Origin: Candidatus Magasanikiibacteriota bacterium
Lineage (GTDB): Bacteria > Patescibacteriota > Patescibacteriia > Magasanikbacterales > JACTTX01
DNA: 32,360 nt
Direction of reading: 5' to 3'
Assembly: GCA_015661005.1 (NCBI GenBank)
Contig: JACTTX010000003.1
Span: forward strand, 1 to 32,360
Position 1 is the stretch's first letter; every line of letters begins with the position of its first letter. The position numbers and the translations under genes are program-made. The notes beneath the pieces are model-generated. The model had not been told where the DNA came from, searched no databases, and was given only the letters and a program-made list of their open reading frames with translations. Shown piece by piece: positions 347 to 21,041 of this stretch.

Positions 347-3300
347 TTACGAGCATCCCATGGAATTCCCGCAGTTCAAACATTTATAACACGATCCATT
401 CCTGACCGTGATATGCCCGCAGGTGTCGCAAGCCGGAGCGTCGCCCATCATTTCTTCCAGTTGAGCGTCAACGGCGGTTTTTCCAGAAGCGGCGACTGAC
501 GCCGTTTTAATTTCCATCGTGGCGGACGCTTCTTTAATAAACGGCGCCGCTTTCAAGACATCCTGAAAACTATCCGCCCGCGTTTCTGTTGGCGCCACTT
601 GCACAATATCCGTGCGTCCCAAATATTCCATAGCCAGCACGCGGAAAATATAATCAATGACCGACGTGCACATTTTCACGTTCGGATGATTGGTAAAACC
701 GGACGGCTCAAAGCGCGTGAAGGTGAATTTCTCCACGAACTTTTCCAGCGGCACGCCGTATTGAAGCCCCAAAGAAATGGAAACGGCAAAACAATTCAAG
801 AGTGAACGGAAAGCCGCGCCTTCTCTGAACATATCAATGAAAATTTCACCTAAGGCGCCATTCGGATATTCACCGGTGCGGATATATACTTGTTGATTGC
901 CAATTTTAGCTTCCACCGTAATGCCGGTGCGCTTGGCCGGTAACTGCCGCCGCACGCCGTACTCGGCACCGTTTGAAATCGCGGCTGGCGCTGCGGCCGC
1001 AACCATTACCTGTTCCCGGTTATTTGTTATTTGTTCTTTATTTTCCATTTTAGAAGTGTCCCCTTTAGAACTGTCCCCATTCTTTTTGTTATCTGACTTT
1101 GTTGAAAGCGGCTGTGACAATTTGCATCCATCGCGGTAAAGAGCGACGGCTTTTAATCCCAGACGCCACGATTCCATATACGCATCTTTCACGTCGTCCA
1201 CCGTTACCTCATTCGGCATGTTGATGGTTTTGGAGATGGCGCCGCTCAAAAATGGTTGCACCGCCGCCATCATCCGAATGTGCCCCAAGTGATGAATGAA
1301 GCGCTGACCTTTCTTGCCGCACCGATTGGCACAGTCAAAAACGGAGTAATGTTCCGACTTCAAATACGGCGCGCCTTCAATGGTCATGGCGCCGCAAACA
1401 AATTCATTGGCCGCTTCAATCTCTGTGTCCGTGAAGCCCAGCGCTTTCAATAAATTAAAATTGAAATCATTGTATTGCGCCGCGGTCAGGCCGAGCCGCT
1501 TCATCACTTCTTCACCAAGCGTCCAGACGTTAAAAGCAAACGGTATTTCAAAAACACCGGCCAAATTTTTCTCCACCACTTCCAAATCCTTCTCCGTGAA
1601 GCCCTTGGCCTTTAAACTTTCATGATTGATGTGCGGCGCGTTTTTCAAAGTGGCGCGGCCTTTGACATATTCCACAATTTCTTTAATTTGCATTTCATTA
1701 TATCCAAGCGTGCGCAAAGCCGTCGGCAATGACTCATTCACAATCTTCATATAACCGCCGCCGGCAAGTTTTTTGAATTTCACCAAGGCAAAATCGGGTT
1801 CCACACCGGTGGTGGCGCAATCCATCAAAAGTCCAATCGTGCCGGTGGGCGCCAGCAATGTTGTCTGCGCATTGCGGTAACCATACCTTTCACCAAGCAC
1901 CACCGCCTCATCCCACGATTCCTGCGCCGCTTTAAGGAGATACGATGGACAAACATTTTGATCAAGACCAACCGGCAGAACTTCCAATTTTTCATATTCC
2001 GTTGGCGCGGTGTTGTAGACGGCGCGGCGGTGATTGCGCATCACTCGCAACATCTCTTCTTTGTTCTCATTGTACTTTGGAAACATTCCCAAATGTCCGG
2101 CCATTTCCGCGGACGTGGCATAGGAAACACCGGTCATAATGGCGGTGACGGCGCCGGCAATGGCGCGTGCTGGCGGCGAGTCATAAGCAATGCCGGAAGC
2201 CATCAGCACTCCACTTCCCAAATTAGCGTAACCCAAACCAAGTGTGCGAAAATCATAACTCATCTGGCCGATTTCTTTGCTTGGGTACTGGGCCATCAAC
2301 ACGGAAATTTCCAAAGTGATGGTCCAAATGCGGACGGCGTGGCGGAAGTCATCAACTTTGAAAGTCAAAGTGTTGGCGTCAAAAAAATGTTGAAGATTCA
2401 AAGACATTAAGTTGCAAGCGGTATTGTCCAAAAACATGTATTCAGAGCATGGATTACTGGCGTTGATTCGACCGGACTTCGGACAAGTGTGCCACTCGTT
2501 AATGATGGTGTCGGTTTGAATGCCGGGATCGGCACAGCTCCAAGCCGCATAAGCAATTTTCTGCCAAAGATCGCGGGCTTTGAAGGTCTTGCAAACGCGA
2601 TCGTCAGTGCGCCATTTCAGATTCCAATCACCGTCTTCCAAAACAGCGCGAAAAAAACTGTTCGGTATGCGCACGGAGTTGTTGGAATTTTGTCCGGAGA
2701 CGGTGAGATAGGCCTCGCCTTCATAGTCAGATGGATAACCGCCAACAATTAAAGCCGCCACCTTTTTCTCTTCTTCCACTTTCCAATTCACAAAGGCCTC
2801 AATATCCGGATGATCAATATCCAAACAAACCATCTTGGCGGCGCGGCGGGTGGTGCCGCCGGACTTGATGGCGCCGGCGGCGCGATCGCCGATTTTCAAA
2901 AACGACATTAATCCGGAAGAGCGGCCGCCGCCCGAGAGCGGCTCGCCATTGCCGCGCAAAGAGGAAAAGTTGGTGCCGGTGCCGGAACCATATTTAAACA
3001 ATCGCGCTTCTCTGACCCAGAGATCCATAATGCCGCCTTCATTCACCAAATCATCTTTGATGGATTGGATGAAGCAGTTATGCACGACGACGCCATTGGC
3101 GGCAAATTTTTCTGTAGAAGTTTGAATGTCAAAAACCTCTTGCACATCAAGCGGCTCAAAAGCAATAACGGTTTCTTCAGAAATATTTTTTTTATTTTTA
3201 CCGTCAACCGTTTCATTTAGTTCTCTCAACTTTGTCATTTTTCTTTTGGAAGCAAACCCAACCTGCTCTTCAAATTTCTTTCTTTCTGAAGCGTACGCAA

Positions 3301-4762
3301 TGATGACGTGATTCAGAACACCGCGATTTTCTCTTCTATCCCGACACTCGCTGATACGCGAATAAATTCCCAGACCGGATAAAAGCAGGTGCACTTCATG
3401 AGCTAATTTTGCCGATGTCGTTGCTAAACAGACATCACCGGAATTTCTCCCGTCATCTTTGCGTATTCTTACCGCGCCATCGGCTTGAAATAATCCTCTA
3501 AGAAATGCCCGCTGTGCTTCCGGCGTAGCCGCAAAAATTTTCTTCGGCACGCCCACATTTCTACTACCTAAACCAAGTTCAAAGACCTGACGAAATTCTA
3601 TCGTTTCTTTAAAATCGTGTTTGACAATTTTATATTCAGGACTGATGTTGGGCTTAGCGGTAACAGTGTAGGCGCCAAAAACATCCTCAAATAATCGCGC
3701 GATTCTGACAAATTCATCTTCCGTAGCGGCAACTACTCCAAAAAGAGTGGTCTTATTATAGGTGCCGGCATAACCATCGCCAACATGGAAACCGACCAAC
3801 TCTGCTTGCGCAGTTGTAACCATTTCTTTTTCTTTCAAAAAACTATAAGCGCCAACCTCTTGTTTAGTTACAAATAAAACTTTTTTATTTAATGTCTCCT
3901 CTGCCGGAAGCCAAGAATACCAACCACCTTCCTTCTCTCTTTCTTTTGAAGCCATGACCAAATGATCAGCGGTCAAATCAACATACTGGCCATTGCTCAA
4001 TTTCATTCTGAATACTTGTCTCTTGCCATTTTTTTTAACGGCTAAAATTTTTGCCCAATTATTGCCGTCATAAACTAACAGATCCGTTCGGTTGTTTTGA
4101 ACGACTTCACTGATGGTCAACCATCCTTCGCTTGTTAAAAGTTTGGTGTCACCAACGACGCACGCATGGGGCTGTGGATGCGTATATGCGTCCGCGGCGC
4201 GAGTGAGCACGCCGGTTCCCGGATCAACATAATAATGTCCTTGCGACTGGCTGTTGATGCCATAAGCCCAATTCAAACCAGTGTTAAAAAATTGCGGGGA
4301 GTTCGGGACGCCCATTTGATGGAGCATCATATAAACACTCTCATCATAATAAGCGGCCGCATCTTCCGTGGTGGCAAAGTATCCGTACTTCTCTCCCCAA
4401 TATCGCCAGCATCCCACCATTCTATGCACGACTTGTTTCACGCTGTGTTCGGACCCAAGCGCCGGTTGACCGTCCGCCGTGCGTTTAGGCGTGCCGTCTT
4501 CATTGGTTTGCGGCACGCCGGTTTTACGAAAATATTTTTGCGCCAAAATATCCGTGGCCACTTGCGACCAAAAAATCGGCACTTCCACATCATTCATTTC
4601 AAAAACAACGGTCCCGTCCGTGTTGCGGATAATTGAAGACCGTTTTTCATATTGTACGCTGGCAAAGGGATCGGCGCCGACCTTGGTAAAAATACGAGGA
4701 ATGGCCAAACCTTTAAGAGCCGTGCTCTGGGCGACGGCAAACCCGGTTTGCAGTTCGGACAT
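347..4762 (-). CDS. nrdJ: Adenosylcobalamin-dependent (class II) ribonucleotide reductase with in-frame intein
   Basis: ELQTGFAVAQSTALKGLAIPRIFTKVGADPFASVQYEKRSS N-terminus, NPCSEYMFLDNTACNLMSLNL, C-terminal CDTCGHITVRNGSCYKCLNCGNSMGCS; typical of B12-dependent RNR. Confidence 0.95.
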   Translation of the reverse strand: MSELQTGFAVAQSTALKGLAIPRIFTKVGADPFASVQYEKRSSIIRNTDGTVVFEMNDVEVPIFWSQVATDILAQKYFRKTGVPQTNEDGTPKRTADGQPALGSEHSVKQVVHRMVGCWRYWGEKYGYFATTEDAAAYYDESVYMMLHQMGVPNSPQFFNTGLNWAYGINSQSQGHYYVDPGTGVLTRAADAYTHPQPHACVVGDTKLLTSEGWLTISEVVQNNRTDLLVYDGNNWAKILAVKKNGKRQVFRMKLSNGQYVDLTADHLVMASKEREKEGGWYSWLPAEETLNKKVLFVTKQEVGAYSFLKEKEMVTTAQAELVGFHVGDGYAGTYNKTTLFGVVAATEDEFVRIARLFEDVFGAYTVTAKPNISPEYKIVKHDFKETIEFRQVFELGLGSRNVGVPKKIFAATPEAQRAFLRGLFQADGAVRIRKDDGRNSGDVCLATTSAKLAHEVHLLLSGLGIYSRISECRDRRENRGVLNHVIIAYASERKKFEEQVGFASKRKMTKLRELNETVDGKNKKNISEETVIAFEPLDVQEVFDIQTSTEKFAANGVVVHNCFIQSIKDDLVNEGGIMDLWVREARLFKYGSGTGTNFSSLRGNGEPLSGGGRSSGLMSFLKIGDRAAGAIKSGGTTRRAAKMVCLDIDHPDIEAFVNWKVEEEKKVAALIVGGYPSDYEGEAYLTVSGQNSNNSVRIPNSFFRAVLEDGDWNLKWRTDDRVCKTFKARDLWQKIAYAAWSCADPGIQTDTIINEWHTCPKSGRINASNPCSEYMFLDNTACNLMSLNLQHFFDANTLTFKVDDFRHAVRIWTITLEISVLMAQYPSKEIGQMSYDFRTLGLGYANLGSGVLMASGIAYDSPPARAIAGAVTAIMTGVSYATSAEMAGHLGMFPKYNENKEEMLRVMRNHRRAVYNTAPTEYEKLEVLPVGLDQNVCPSYLLKAAQESWDEAVVLGERYGYRNAQTTLLAPTGTIGLLMDCATTGVEPDFALVKFKKLAGGGYMKIVNESLPTALRTLGYNEMQIKEIVEYVKGRATLKNAPHINHESLKAKGFTEKDLEVVEKNLAGVFEIPFAFNVWTLGEEVMKRLGLTAAQYNDFNFNLLKALGFTDTEIEAANEFVCGAMTIEGAPYLKSEHYSVFDCANRCGKKGQRFIHHLGHIRMMAAVQPFLSGAISKTINMPNEVTVDDVKDAYMESWRLGLKAVALYRDGCKLSQPLSTKSDNKKNGDSSKGDTSKMENKEQITNNREQVMVAAAAPAAISNGAEYGVRRQLPAKRTGITVEAKIGNQQVYIRTGEYPNGALGEIFIDMFREGAAFRSLLNCFAVSISLGLQYGVPLEKFVEKFTFTRFEPSGFTNHPNVKMCTSVIDYIFRVLAMEYLGRTDIVQVAPTETRADSFQDVLKAAPFIKEASATMEIKTASVAASGKTAVDAQLEEMMGDAPACDTCGHITVRNGSCYKCLNCGNSMGCS
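1049..1078. repeat. Two tandem 15-bp copies of the GGGGACAGTTCTAAA repeat inside the RNR coding region
   Basis: TTTAGAAGTGTCCCC TTTAGAACTGTCCCC, translated on the minus strand as GDSSK GDTSK. Confidence 0.85.
3077..4162 (-). mobile_element. Intein (362 aa) with LAGLIDADG/DOD homing endonuclease, inserted in the RNR
   Basis: Begins CVVGDTKLLTSEGW (block A), GQYVDLTADHLVMA (block B), DOD motifs LVGFHVGDGYAG and LRGLFQADGAVR, ends FAANGVVVHN followed by +1 Cys (CFIQS). Exteins rejoin as QPHA|CFIQS. Confidence 0.95.
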
Positions 4763-14841: not shown

Positions 14842-17800
14842 TTATTCATCCGGCAATGGTTCTTTAAATCTTGGCGGCGGGGCTTTGGTTTCTTCTTTCA
14901 CATCAACTGCCACGATGGTGAGCACACCATCCTCATTGCGCTTCAGAAGCTCCACGTCCAAAGACAGACCTTTAAGTTCACGAGTGAGCACATGGAACGA
15001 TTCCGGGATATTAATCTTGGTGATCGGTTCACCTTTGATGATGGCCTCATAGGCCTTGGCGCGGCCCGGGACGTCGTCGGATTTAATGGTTAGAATTTCC
15101 TGAAGCGTATGCGCGGCGCCATAGGCCTCAAGCGCCCACACTTCCATTTCACCAAAACGCTGGCCGCCAAATTGTGCCTTGCCGCCCAACGGCTGTTGGG
15201 TGATCAAAGAGTACGGCCCGATGGAGCGTTGGTGAATCTTGTCCTCAACCATGTGGTTCAACTTCAAAATATAGGTGTAACCAACCGTAACTTTCCGATC
15301 AAACGCTTCACCGGTGCGACCGTCATATAATTGCACCTGACCTTCAACCGGAAAACCGGCTTTTTCCAACTCCCCTTTGATTTGCTCTTCCGTAACGCCG
15401 TTTAACACCGGTGTTGCCGCTTTATATCCCAAAGCATTGGCCGCCAATCCCAAATGCGTTTCCAAAATCTGGCCCAAATTCATACGCGATATAACGCCGA
15501 GCGGCGAGAGAATAACGTCAACCGGCGTGCCATCTTCCAAAAACGGCATATCTTCAATGGGCACGACGCGCGAGCAGACGCCTTTGTTGCCGTGGCGCCC
15601 CGCGACCTTGTCTCCGACTTGAATCTTTCGCATATCCGCCACCGAGACCTGAATCGTCTTGATGACGCCCGGCGGCAACTTGTCTCCGGCTTCGGCCGAG
15701 AAAATTTTAATATCCACCACTTTGCCGTGCTCCCCATGCTCTAAATATTTTGAAGAGTCGCGAACATCGCGCGCTTTTTCTCCAAAAATGGCGCGCAACA
15801 ATTTTTCTTCCGCCGACAATTCCGTTTCACCCTTAGGCGTAATCTTGCCGACCAAAATATCCCCGGACTGCACTTCCGCGCCAATCCGGACCACGCCTTC
15901 CGAATCCAAATTTTTCAGTTTTTCTTCCGAGACGTTGGGGATGTCCGCGGTCACCACTTCCGGCCCGAGCTTTGTTTCCCGAACATCAGTGGAATAATCT
16001 TCAATGTGAATGGATGAGAAGCGATCATTGTGCACCAGCCGTTCGGAAAGAATCACCGCGTCTTCAAAGTTGTATCCATCCCAAATCATGTAGGCCACCA
16101 AAATATTTTGTCCGAGCGCCAACTCTCCGCCTTGGGTGGACGGGCCGTCAGCCAGCGGCTGTCCTTTTTTAACTTTCTCCCCGCGGTTCACAATCGGCCG
16201 CTGGTTGATGGCCGTGGATCCGTTGGAGCGTAAAAATTTATTCAAGCGGTAATTGTAAGTTTTCCCGCTTTTGCCGGAGAGCGCGATTTTCCCGCCATCC
16301 ATTTCCGTAATCTCCCCATCTTCTTCAGCCAAAATAACGTGGCCGGAATTGTGGGCGGCCAAGGCCTCCACTCCGGTGCCGACGATAGGCGCTTCCGGAT
16401 TGATGCAGGGTACGGCTTGACGTTGCATATTGGTGCCCATCAAAGCGCGGGTGGCGTCATCGTGTTCCAAAAAGGGAATGAGGGAAGTGGCGATGGAAAT
16501 AACTTGATTGGACGCCACGTCAATGTATTCAATGTCTTCCACGTCCGCGGAACTCGGGTGGCCAAACTTGCGCACCGGCGCTTTTTCACCGGTGAAATAA
16601 CCGTTCAGATCCACCGGCACCGTGGAAGAAGCGGTGATGGTTTTTTCTTCCTGAAAAGCGTTCAAGTACACGATTTCCGATCCGACGCGCGGCTTGACCG
16701 GAATTATTTCCCAACCCGCCGTTTCCAATTTTTTAGCCATTGCCTCATCCACGGCAACGCCGCGAGCGCCAATAATTTCTCCCGATGATTTGTGAGTTAT
16801 GTCCTCACGCAAAATTTCACCAACAGTGAATTTTGATTTGTTCGGAACTTCCCGCAAAACTTTTCTATACGGCGTTTCCAAAAATCCAAACTCATTGACG
16901 CGAGCATAAGAAGAAAGGTGACCGACGAGTCCGATGTTCGGACCTTCCGGCGTGGCAATTGGACAAATGCGGCCGTAGTGTGTCGGGTGGACATCGCGCA
17001 CATCAAAACCGGCGCGATCACGGGAAAGTCCGCCCGGGCCAAGAGCCGAAAGGCGGCGCTTGTGTTCCAACTCCGAAAGCGGATTGATTTGATCCATGAA
17101 CTGGGAAAGCTGGGACGACATGAAAAATTCTCGGACCGCGCCAATGACCGGCCGAGCATTGATCAGTTTGTTTGGTGAAAGCGTGGTGACGTCATAGGTT
17201 GACATCCGGTCTTTCACAATGCGCTCCATCCGCGCCAAGCCCACGCGAAAACGATTTTGCACCAACTCACCCACGGCGCGAATGCGGCGGTTGCCCAAGT
17301 GATCAATGTCATCCGGATCTTCTTGCGTTACATTCAAACGAATGACTTCCTTAATGATGCGCAAAACATCTTCCTTTTTAAGAACACGATGCTCTTTGGA
17401 ATTCAAATCCGCTTCCGCTTCCGGAATGCCAAAACGCTGATTGAATTTATACCGGCCGACGCGTCCCAAATCATAACGATCAAAATTGAAAAACATGGCG
17501 TGAATCAGCTGACGGGCATTATCCGCCGTGGCCAGATCCCCGGGACGAATGCGTCTGTACACTTCAATCAACGCCTCCTCTTCATTGGTAGAAGCGTCTT
17601 TGGCCAGCGTCATTTCCACATAATCAATTTGCGGATGAGTGTTCACTTCTTTCATCAGTTCACGCATTTCATCCGTGTTCACATAACCGAAAGCCCGCAG
17701 AAGCGTGGCCGCGGAGACCTTGCGCTTGCGGTCAACTTTAACCCACAGCACATTATTCAAATCCGTTTCAATTTCAATCCACGCTCCGCGATTCGGAATA

Positions 17801-18282
17801 ATCTTGGCCCCGTAATAACGGCGCCCGCGCGCCGCTTCCGAAGTAAAAAATGCGCCCGGCGAACGAATCAGTTGAGAAACAATCACCCGTTCAATCCCGT
17901 TCACAATAAAAGTTCCGCGCGGCGTCATGATTGGAAAATCACCAAGGTACACTTCCTGATCTTTAACGTCACCAGTGCGCTTATTCACCAGACGCGCATT
18001 GACGCGCAAAGGCGCTTCAAAAGAAATATTTTTTTCTCGACTCGTCACTTCATCAAATTTTGGTTCGTCCAAATAATAATCCAAAAAAGAAAGTTCCAAA
18101 TCCCGGCCGGTGAAATCCGTGATCGGCGAAACCTCGTCAAAAAGTTCGCGAATGCCTTTTTTGAAAAACCAATCGTAAGCATTTTTCTGCACCTCAATCA
18201 AGTCCGGGACCGGCGCCGTATCCCGCAAGCTAGTGAAATATTTTCGTTCGGCGATGATCGTGGGTTGGCGTTTGAAAATCAT
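14842..18282 (-). CDS. rpoB: DNA-directed RNA polymerase subunit beta
   Basis: IATPEGPNIGLVGHLSSYARVN, GYNFEDAVILSERLV, LGGKAQFGGQRFGEMEVWALEAYGAAHTLQE; start MIFKRQPTIIAERKYF at 18282. Confidence 0.97.
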   Translation of the reverse strand: MIFKRQPTIIAERKYFTSLRDTAPVPDLIEVQKNAYDWFFKKGIRELFDEVSPITDFTGRDLELSFLDYYLDEPKFDEVTSREKNISFEAPLRVNARLVNKRTGDVKDQEVYLGDFPIMTPRGTFIVNGIERVIVSQLIRSPGAFFTSEAARGRRYYGAKIIPNRGAWIEIETDLNNVLWVKVDRKRKVSAATLLRAFGYVNTDEMRELMKEVNTHPQIDYVEMTLAKDASTNEEEALIEVYRRIRPGDLATADNARQLIHAMFFNFDRYDLGRVGRYKFNQRFGIPEAEADLNSKEHRVLKKEDVLRIIKEVIRLNVTQEDPDDIDHLGNRRIRAVGELVQNRFRVGLARMERIVKDRMSTYDVTTLSPNKLINARPVIGAVREFFMSSQLSQFMDQINPLSELEHKRRLSALGPGGLSRDRAGFDVRDVHPTHYGRICPIATPEGPNIGLVGHLSSYARVNEFGFLETPYRKVLREVPNKSKFTVGEILREDITHKSSGEIIGARGVAVDEAMAKKLETAGWEIIPVKPRVGSEIVYLNAFQEEKTITASSTVPVDLNGYFTGEKAPVRKFGHPSSADVEDIEYIDVASNQVISIATSLIPFLEHDDATRALMGTNMQRQAVPCINPEAPIVGTGVEALAAHNSGHVILAEEDGEITEMDGGKIALSGKSGKTYNYRLNKFLRSNGSTAINQRPIVNRGEKVKKGQPLADGPSTQGGELALGQNILVAYMIWDGYNFEDAVILSERLVHNDRFSSIHIEDYSTDVRETKLGPEVVTADIPNVSEEKLKNLDSEGVVRIGAEVQSGDILVGKITPKGETELSAEEKLLRAIFGEKARDVRDSSKYLEHGEHGKVVDIKIFSAEAGDKLPPGVIKTIQVSVADMRKIQVGDKVAGRHGNKGVCSRVVPIEDMPFLEDGTPVDVILSPLGVISRMNLGQILETHLGLAANALGYKAATPVLNGVTEEQIKGELEKAGFPVEGQVQLYDGRTGEAFDRKVTVGYTYILKLNHMVEDKIHQRSIGPYSLITQQPLGGKAQFGGQRFGEMEVWALEAYGAAHTLQEILTIKSDDVPGRAKAYEAIIKGEPITKINIPESFHVLTRELKGLSLDVELLKRNEDGVLTIVAVDVKEETKAPPPRFKEPLPDE

Positions 18283-18302
18283 ATTTATAGAAGTGGGGAT
18301 TG

Positions 18303-18367
18303 GAGAACGGTGATTTGTGAATGGCGTGTTCTTCAATCAAGAACGCCATTCACAAATCACCGTTCTC
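18303..18367 (-). repeat. Leader hairpin family, copy B (upstream of rpoB)
   Basis: GAGAACGGTGATTTGTGAATGGCG arm perfectly repeated inverted; apex (sense) GGCGTTCTTGATTGAAGAACACGCC. Confidence 0.9.
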
Positions 18368-18520
18368 TGTTCTCCAAGGCAACAATAAAATCCCTGCCTC
18401 GACAATTGTCGAGGAGGGTCAGTGACTTTATTACTCCTTTAGAGAGGAATGCAAGGTGGGCATGAAGTCCTTGCACACAGAATTCCGCTTAAACAACGGA
18501 AATCCGTGATAGGTGGCAAC

Positions 18521-18549
18521 AGTGTAGCGTGCATAAAAAGTTTTGTCAA
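18521..18549 (-). promoter_or_regulatory. Sigma70-type promoter for rpoBC
   Basis: Minus strand TTGACA-N17-TACACT; implies a ~230-nt rpoB leader. Confidence 0.75.
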
Positions 18550-18624: not shown

Positions 18625-18653
18625 TTGACAGACCTGTGGATATCTGTTATAGT
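18625..18653 (+). promoter_or_regulatory. Near-consensus sigma70 promoter for the 1.2-kb ncRNA
   Basis: TTGACA (18625-18630)-N17-TATAGT (18648-18653). Confidence 0.85.
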
Positions 18654-18659
18654 GCTGGG

Positions 18660-19864
18660 TTCTTAACAATGTCTTGCCTCTCGAGGAGGGACAAGGAGGA
18701 GAGAAAACGGTGTTGCGTACCTCGCTTTAGCGGGGGGTAATCCCCAGCTAAAGGGGGGATTCACGCGGCATCGTCGGTGTTTTTGGGAGGATTCGTTGGG
18801 CTTCGGCTCAACAACCCCTTTCAAACTCACCACGCGTGGTCGTCGGCGCTTGCGCTGACAAAGACCTGCATCTCGCCTCCGGATCCGTCCTCAAGAAATT
18901 GAGGACACGAATCTGGGGGCGGCGGGTCGAGTGCTTGTCCGTCCCCTATTCACAATTTGATCTCCAATCATCCAAAGTGAAGTTATTGCCGAATGACTTT
19001 GCTTTGGACGATTGGCAGATCATAGTGAGACGCCGTTTATGCCGGACTTGAGTGTCGGCTTCCGGGTGGATCAAGTATCTGCCAACCGTTCTTCTTCTTC
19101 GCCCGAACGCAACGCGCGTGCGGGCATTCACAGGCCACATTGGCCAGGAAGGAAGGTGGGGGATGACGTAGCTAAGCACACCCCCAAACTTACGATTGCG
19201 AAAAAAAACGAGCCGGCTAGTGCCCCGGTGCAACAATTTGGCACGAACCCGCCCTTTTGCGGCGAAAGATCCCCCTTAGGGGAACAAGGAGGAAAAATGG
19301 TGGCAAGCCGCCGCTTGCTCTACCGCCTGTAGGCCTGAACGGCCACCAGGCGGCCACAACCAAAAAAGTGTGAGGACGCGGCGACCGCGTTCTCCAACAG
19401 TCGGGGTACAACAGCACTCAATTGGTCCCACAAGGATCAAGGACTTCGGTCCAAAAGAGTGTGTACACCGACGGAGGGAACAAAACATCGTTCCCTTCCA
19501 CTCTTAACTCATTTCCAAGAAGTGGTTTGAGAGTGGAACTTCCGAGGTACTTCTACGCAAGAGCTACCTCTACTCAAAACGAGGAGGAAAAATGAATCGT
19601 TTAACCTAACCAGCGACGGCGCGCTGGTGTCACAAACAAATACGGGAGGAATCGCCAATTGCCTCCCGTCGCTTTCCCGGGTCACCTCGGTTGAGATGAC
19701 ATGAGAAAGCGATCGTTCCTTCAAACGGCTAAAGAGCGGAGTCCCGTGACTGCCACCCAAGTGATCTTTTCATTATCACGCCGCAGTCACGGCTCCACTT
19801 GTTGGCCGTTTCCAATAAATTTTTACCCACTCAAACAAACGCGCCGTCAGCGCGTTTGTTTTTT
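18660..19864 (+). ncRNA. Candidate large structured non-coding RNA (~1.2 kb), unidentified class
   Basis: Promoter at 5' end, intrinsic terminator at 3' end, no plausible protein, many hairpins (e.g. GTCCTCAA-GAAA-TTGAGGAC; CAATC-A-TCCAAAG..CTTTGGA-C-GATTG; CCGCCT-gta-GGCC..GGCC-acc-AGGCGG; CCGTGACTGC..GCAGTCACGG). Confidence 0.8.
19834..19864 (+). terminator. Intrinsic terminator of the 1.2-kb ncRNA
   Basis: AACAAACGCG-ccgtcag-CGCGTTTGTT-TTTT. Confidence 0.9.
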
Positions 19865-20093
19865 AATCACACTCATATCGTTTGACAACCAGGGTTTGGT
19901 CTTACTGCAATTATAGTAACTATCTACCACAGTTATGTTTAATTTCCGTTCCACGCTATGACAAAAACTTTTACTCTATTTGTTTACCAATCCAACGCGG
20001 AACCACTACGTCCGTGAGCTTGGTCGCATTATTGATGTTGATCCCACCAACTGATTGAAGAACAAATGTGAGCAAATTTCTTGGCAAGCACGT

Positions 20094-21041
20094 TTAATTT
20101 TTTCGTTGCCTGCTTCGGTTTTTTAGGTATCGCTCAATGGCTTCTTTTGAAGTTAGCCAATCCCTGTCTTCCTTGTGGGCTTCAAGTTTACCTTGTCTTG
20201 CCAGCAAATTTAGATATTTTGCTGAAAAAGGCGTGCTTTTAGATATTTCAGTCAGTGATGCAAATTTTTCCTGTTTTTGAGTTGCTGGAGTCAATGTTTT
20301 TAGGTAGATATCAAGAGAGCGCTCTATTGATTGAGCGATAAATTTTACCAGCGGTTCGTATTTACCGCTGTCAGCTTTATCTAATACATCATAATATTTT
20401 TTGCGATCATTCTTTAAAATAATGACAAGCGGATAGCCAGCCTTCATTAGTAGTAAATTCATAGTAAGTCGCGCGGTTCTACCGTTGCCGTCAAAAAATG
20501 GATGAATGTGCACTAATTTGTGATGCAGTAACGCAGACAGTTCAATGACGCTAATTTTGTTTCTTTGTAAATTAAGCCAACCGATTAAATCTCGCATTTT
20601 TTGCGGCACCTGCAAGGCATCCGGAGGGGTGTGTTTAGCTCCGCCAATAATCACCTTGGCGTTTCTATATCTCCCCGCCCACTCTTTATCCGTTTCTTGA
20701 ATAATAATTTGATGCAAATTTCGTATTAGCATTTCAGAAATAGTGTGTTTTTTATCTTTATCTACCAAATCATACAAATATTCCAGCGCAGCTTGGTGGT
20801 CTTTGGCCTCTAGGTGATCTTTTAAAGGTTTGCCTTTTATAGTCACGCCTTCATTGATGACCAAAAAAGTCTCTTTTAAGGTTAAAGAGTTGCCTTCAAT
20901 AGCGTTTGAATTGTAGGTCATTTCTATCTGGAATTTTTCTCGTAGTTTTTGCACCGCTGATTTTGGCAGGGGGCGGAGCTTATTGAGTTTGGTCAGTTTC
21001 TCCTCCAAACGATTTTTTATGATCGGCGATAGGTAAGTCAT
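20094..21041 (-). CDS. Fic family protein (adenylyltransferase-type) with C-terminal winged-helix-like region
   Basis: HPFFDGNGRTARLTMNLLL (HPFxDGNGRxxR) and upstream TYNSNAIEGN matching the (S/T)xxxE(G/N) inhibitory motif. Confidence 0.95.
   Translation of the reverse strand: MTYLSPIIKNRLEEKLTKLNKLRPLPKSAVQKLREKFQIEMTYNSNAIEGNSLTLKETFLVINEGVTIKGKPLKDHLEAKDHQAALEYLYDLVDKDKKHTISEMLIRNLHQIIIQETDKEWAGRYRNAKVIIGGAKHTPPDALQVPQKMRDLIGWLNLQRNKISVIELSALLHHKLVHIHPFFDGNGRTARLTMNLLLMKAGYPLVIILKNDRKKYYDVLDKADSGKYEPLVKFIAQSIERSLDIYLKTLTPATQKQEKFASLTEISKSTPFSAKYLNLLARQGKLEAHKEDRDWLTSKEAIERYLKNRSRQRKN

Follow-up and report, generated by a model that had tools for sequence, protein, structure and literature searches.

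A probable structured RNA gene divergent from rpoBC in a Patescibacteria genome, with a 5′ domain resembling a recurrent four-way-junction module

Between the start of rpoB (near position 18282) and a Fic gene, the stretch of Candidatus Magasanikiibacteriota DNA analysed here (32,360 nucleotides, hereafter the window) holds an interval of about 1.2 kb in which a sequence-only reading saw a promoter, closely spaced hairpins and a terminator, and which it proposed to be a large structured RNA of a new class. What does this interval encode, and does it have relatives? Genomes of Patescibacteria are minimal, and few of their RNAs have been studied. The host, a Candidatus Magasanikbacteria-like member of this group with an 870-kb genome, is the sole representative of its own family in the genome set compared, and its rpoB N-terminus is 68–78% identical to those of the 80 best named relatives. 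The unit lies on the plus strand, divergent from rpoBC as had been claimed, and both flanking genes lie on the minus strand. The proposed promoter was located (Table 1); it matches the consensus at 11 of 12 positions, has an extended TG, and is one among 53 of equal strength genome-wide. The proposed terminator consists of a perfect 12-bp inverted repeat (19833–19844/19850–19861) followed by T6, and was absent from the output of a simple terminator scan. The start of the unit is inferred from the promoter and its end was set at the terminator; its transcription is likewise predicted from sequence. No tRNA was found in the window, and the surrounding genes are ordinary chromosomal ones. One of the window's genes, encoding a class II ribonucleotide reductase (347–4762), contains an intein with a LAGLIDADG domain.

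Table 1. Features of the window in and around the structured RNA unit.
Feature	Positions	Strand	Remarks
rpoB, divergent neighbour	14842..18282	-	N-terminus anchors synteny
Promoter-like site TTGACA-17-TACACT, divergent rpoB side	18521..18549	-	
Promoter TTGACA-N17-TATAGT, TG ahead of -10 box	18625..18653	+	promoter type also precedes the module arrays of relatives
Structured RNA unit	18655..19866	+	folding z -14.6, no coding signal, no Rfam match
Putative divergent copy of four-way-junction module	18674..18897	+	R2, 22.5 bits, model 1-174
P1 5′ strand around GGACAAGGAGGAGAG	18686..18702	+	partner ~18874-18893 (model) or 19716-19722 (minimum-energy fold)
AGGAGG + micro-ORF GTG..TAG (MLRTSL)	18694..18730	+	
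Helix P2	18707..18774	+	pair probability ~0.98
Helix P3	18776..18831	+	cap GUUGGGC-UUCG-GCUCAAC at 18795-18812, invariant G.U + G-C
Strong hairpin, competitor of modelled P1	18863..18928	+	
Long closed domain including 17-bp hairpin 18971-19008	18931..19078	+	fold; no homologue found
AGGAGG + micro-ORF ATG..TAG (MVASRRLLYRL)	19287..19332	+	
AGGAGG + micro-ORF ATG..TAA (MNRLT)	19582..19609	+	
3′ hairpin domain, nested stem 19723-19811	19609..19812	+	fold; no homologue found
Intrinsic terminator AAACAAACGCGC-cgtca-GCGCGTTTGTTT-TTT	19833..19864	+	
Fic gene, next after unit	20094-21041	-	

The minimum free energy predicted for the unit was −543.5, compared with −410.8 ± 9.1 for 20 dinucleotide shuffles (z = −14.6), which bears out the earlier argument for a selected RNA fold. 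The antisense strand reached a z of −9.0, and control stretches lying within the window but wholly outside the unit ranged from +0.1 to −4.7. In a comparison covering essentially the whole 870-kb genome, the unit was the most structured long stretch among the 64 ORF-poor ones of at least 500 bases, exceeding the 23S rRNA locus. The individual hairpins that had been listed are present, most with pair probabilities above 0.9. No coding signal was found in any of the six frames examined, in agreement with the initial impression of about 1.2 kb without a credible coding sequence, and no protein-like signal, which would have spoken for a different identity, was seen. Comparison with Rfam gave nothing at the gathering score and only short chance matches up to an E value of 10; the models of OLE, GOLLD, ROOL and HEARO, whose signatures had been judged absent by eye, were unmatched. 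RNase P in disguise was rejected as an identity for lack of an Rfam match to RNase P (RNase P type A RNA was not found in the host genome), and so was tmRNA, which is located elsewhere in the host genome. Group I introns of the host lie in the 23S rRNA (L157) and at 2683–2914 of L160. Promoter-like sites followed by structured sequence with no Rfam match were noted at L176 1663–2080, L150 3351–3600 and L146 3745–4390, the last of which also encodes a secreted-looking orphan of 117 aa.

It is very improbable that the unit is the remnant of a decayed gene or mobile element. Its G+C content, higher than that of the flanks, would fit such an origin, as would the palindromic repeats of the genome and its IS110-like transposase unit, whose leader is rich in hairpins, but promoter and terminator are intact, the locus is kept across genera, the structure is far above that of shuffled sequences, and a coding remnant was rejected on the six-frame result. 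The transposase unit (L166, 12430–14930) comprises an ORF of 480 aa (Transposase_20) with a leader of ~800 nt and a strong ribosome-binding site. Hairpins sharing an apical core of approximately GGCGTTCTTGATTGAAGAACACGCC occur at 18294–18377 of the window, L195 16090–16345, L166 11980–12040, L150 10480–10545 and L200 8360–8420; their outer arms differ, each being near-perfectly palindromic, and they are MITE- or REP-like.

Searches for relatives by sequence gave little. No homologue of the whole unit was found by blastn in 86 genomes of the order, 384 genomes of the class, phages or plasmids, the hits in class genomes being confined to a shared ribosome-binding word before protein genes, and a search of IMG/VR with a hairpin pattern returned two matches, roughly the chance level, in dissimilar contexts. 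Because these searches were fruitless, the same position upstream of rpoB was inspected in 80 relatives. In several of them (L086, L075, L090, L117 and L127), a divergent promoter is followed by structured, ORF-poor sequence. The rpoB-divergent RNAs of L075 and L090 are ~330 nt long and mutually homologous, and in L086, another Magasanikbacteria genome, a structured, ORF-poor sequence of ~880 nt runs from promoter to terminator (4324–3425), divergent from rpoB. Other relatives carry ordinary genes upstream of rpoB, for example one for a TSP3-repeat lipoprotein-like protein in L054. An RNA-like element of ~190 nt (CAACTGCG..CTCTCTCTT..CGCAG) was seen upstream of rpoB in L061, L068, L094, L100 and L131, where it apparently precedes an ftsK-like gene.

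A ~175-nt element common to L117 and L127 was first recognised by sequence, L127 containing three copies and a fourth, more diverged one, with small ORFs interleaved. This module is predicted to form a four-way junction; its closing stem, P1, is of the GGAGG/CCUCC type, and the 5′ strand of P1 has the consensus GACGUGGAGGAGA. A covariance model built from four module copies of L127 and L117 (R1) found the module in 14 of the 384 class genomes, often in tandem, and a refined model (R2) was built from 16 modules among the R1 hits, none of them from the organism of the window. R2 matched 42 of the 384 class genomes; in a 384-genome sample of the phylum, it matched seven class members and, weakly, a single genome from elsewhere in the phylum. 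Compensatory changes were present at 59 of the 63 pairs in an alignment of 27 modules, in which 88% of the cells were paired, compared with 61% after shuffling and 35–45% after sliding; these figures lean towards structure because the alignment was fitted to the model, and related copies within it are not independent, but the effect is far beyond the controls despite the fitting. The tip of helix P3 carries a G·U and a G–C pair in all 27 modules and often a UUCG cap (capped tip in 12), and the junction bases are conserved. Four loci that carry the module were compared with Rfam, and nothing relevant was found. A tRNA-like element in L127, called by ARAGORN only at relaxed settings, was dropped.

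The module recurs in a characteristic setting. At least 16 of the 34 module loci examined are adjacent to and divergent from rpoB, most of the flanks available being only 1.5 kb, and a promoter of the TTGACA-17-TG.TATAGT type stands about 14–350 nt before the first module in nearly all loci. L075 and L090, two Magasanikbacteria, carry one module each, flanked by promoter and terminator and accompanied by no ORF; in Uhrbacteria and others, tandem modules alternate with ribosome-binding sites and small orphan ORFs. Since L075 and L090 had been spotted by position before R2 was built, their R2 matches (30.4 and 23.8 bits) were an independent test of the model, which it passed.

In the window, R2 matches the 5′ end of the unit over the full length of the model and on the plus strand, 20 nt past the −10 box. 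The E values are 1.9e-6 for the 2-kb region, 3.1e-5 for the window, 8.4e-4 for the whole genome and 7.4e-4 across the 81 rpoB loci (763 kb), where all matches at E ≤ 1 are rpoB-divergent (L127, L117, L075, L090 and the window). R1 gave hairpin-type matches only in the window, and a fast genome search with the module gave no match in the order. The score alone does not prove this match, because tandem palindromic repeats of GGGGACAGTTCTAAA in the host genome (L200, 7054–7184) reach 45 bits with R2 and thus outscore the window; they were rejected as a second member of the family, being a false positive. Like the modules of relatives, the window RNA is divergent from rpoB and has the TTGACA-17-TG.TATAGT type of promoter just upstream. 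Tandem copies, which are frequent in relatives and not defining, as the single modules of L075 and L090 illustrate, are absent: R2 detected no second module in the window, and for the ~970 nt that lie 3′ of the single one, made up of hairpins and micro-ORFs, no homologues were detected.

The 22.5-bit match could be a chance one, the window RNA then being a separate, lineage-specific large RNA that has only locus, promoter and style in common with the arrays. The weak score, the homologue-free 3′ portion, the lack of blastn similarity within the order and the L086 RNA, which R2 leaves unmatched, are all consistent with this, as is the ambiguity of P1: the modelled stem (18686–18700 with ~18874–18893) contains several non-standard pairs, and in the energy model its 3′ strand prefers another hairpin. 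If the 5′ strand paired as in the minimum-energy fold, the window RNA as a whole would be a single giant module in which one arm is expanded. We nevertheless consider a separate RNA unlikely, given that the match is full-length and on the right strand, that its spacing from the promoter is as expected, that the 763 kb of rpoB loci yielded zero matches outside the rpoB-divergent interval, and that the P1 5′ strand, GACAAGGAGGAGA, is identical to the consensus at 11 of 13 positions. The window furthermore has a unique signature hairpin: the 870-kb genome contains just one capped P3 tip backed by an outer stem of 3 bp or more, which lies at 18799, the place predicted by the model, and the G·U and G–C pairs of the tip are found in 7/7 sequences of alignment A6, window included. 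As this signature was picked after viewing the alignment, it is supporting rather than blind evidence.

Taken together, the window RNA is probably a real structured RNA gene whose 5′ domain belongs to a new module family. The absence of an Rfam match, the absence of a coding signal and the covariation of the 5′ domain support the earlier proposal of a new structured RNA class divergent from rpoBC. Conservation, unproven at that stage, can now be stated for the 5′ domain on the strength of module covariation and the R2 match. The suggested search for homologues thus failed with blastn and succeeded, for this domain, with a covariance model, and covariation was found among its relatives and not along the whole RNA.

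The unit also carries strong signals for translation initiation, a feature absent from the sequence-only reading. There are five instances of GGAGG with a start codon 4–10 nt further on, compared with an expectation of 0.42; none of 1000 shuffles reached this roughly tenfold excess, and three such signals lead micro-ORFs of 5, 6 and 11 codons. The host genome contains two copies of AGGAGGAAAAATG, both inside the window RNA; in other members of the class, the word stands ahead of protein genes and is therefore probably a real ribosome-binding site there. The GGAGG stretches of the window RNA are mostly predicted to be paired. Given these start signals and micro-ORFs, it may go too far to call the unit "strictly non-coding".

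The same signals bear on function. As a cis-acting leader or intercistronic element, each module would control, in the manner of a riboswitch or attenuator, the small ORFs behind it, the window retaining only ORFs of leader-peptide size. We regard this as rather doubtful as the main role, even though the modules of the larger arrays stand ahead of ribosome-binding sites, which argues for such control: in L127, L117, L209, L210, L223, L225 and others they lie between the promoter and small ORFs led by ribosome-binding sites, the P1 strand is itself Shine-Dalgarno-like, the three micro-ORFs of the window have strong start signals, and the array loci fit cis action at least as well as trans action. 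The ORFs behind modules are, however, orphans that for the most part show no relation to each other (43 ORFs include two similar pairs), unlike the targets of metabolite riboswitches; L075 and L090 go from module to terminator with no ORF; and the window RNA has no same-strand gene 3′ of it that could be regulated, the terminator being followed by the opposite-strand Fic gene. The complete, ORF-free units of L075 and L090 argue for a trans-acting RNA product, and tandem growth suggests multivalent binding. We therefore put forward, tentatively and as only slightly likelier than cis control, binding in trans as the main function. The window RNA would be a stand-alone gene transcribed divergently from rpoBC, with a divergent module copy as its 5′ domain; each module would present an identical folded surface to a cellular partner, which may be a protein or the 30S subunit; module copy number would set the valency; and strong expression would be tied to the rpoBC locus. 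A class absent from Rfam, largely restricted to one class of Patescibacteria, tied to the RNA polymerase operon, growing by duplication of a four-way junction to 1–2 kb and serving as a multivalent scaffold or titrator in trans is a reading to which we give somewhat less than an even chance.

With a strong promoter, covarying pairs, an occurrence in 42 or more of the 384 genomes sampled and a frequent position beside rpoBC, the module constitutes a concrete and testable new class. Its locus suggests a tie to transcription or translation capacity, and if giant RNAs arise here by tandem multiplication of a junction domain, that would be an uncommon way of building them. Literature searches by organism and RNA terms, of limited and mostly open-access coverage, returned no description of such an RNA.

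Among known RNAs, OLE (ornate large extremophilic) RNA resembles the window RNA in being large, stand-alone and ornate, but the latter is unmatched in Rfam and differs in host group, locus and module architecture. GOLLD and ROOL are giant ornate RNAs with many hairpins that occur in phages and prophages, often near tRNA islands (PMC12286853). The window RNA is like them in size and ornateness only, being chromosomal, divergent from rpoB and without tRNA or phage genes or an Rfam match; nor does it match the Rfam model of HEARO. Homo-oligomeric particles are a further hallmark of OLE, GOLLD and ROOL. In titrating RNAs of the CsrB type, GGA sites are repeated and accessible, and CsrA is the partner. 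The repeated GGA-bearing units of the module RNAs would permit the multivalent binding seen in protein-titrating RNAs of the CsrB/RsmZ type, but the modules are large four-way junctions, and GGAGG in the window is enriched yet predicted to be paired. Tandem aptamers occur in riboswitches, and tandem riboswitches share with the module RNAs their tandem folded domains, conserved junction bases and ribosome-binding sites downstream; the ORFs behind the modules are unrelated, however, some copies are ORF-less, and Rfam gives no match. The module and window RNA would form a class without a known family and, more broadly, one more large structured bacterial RNA.
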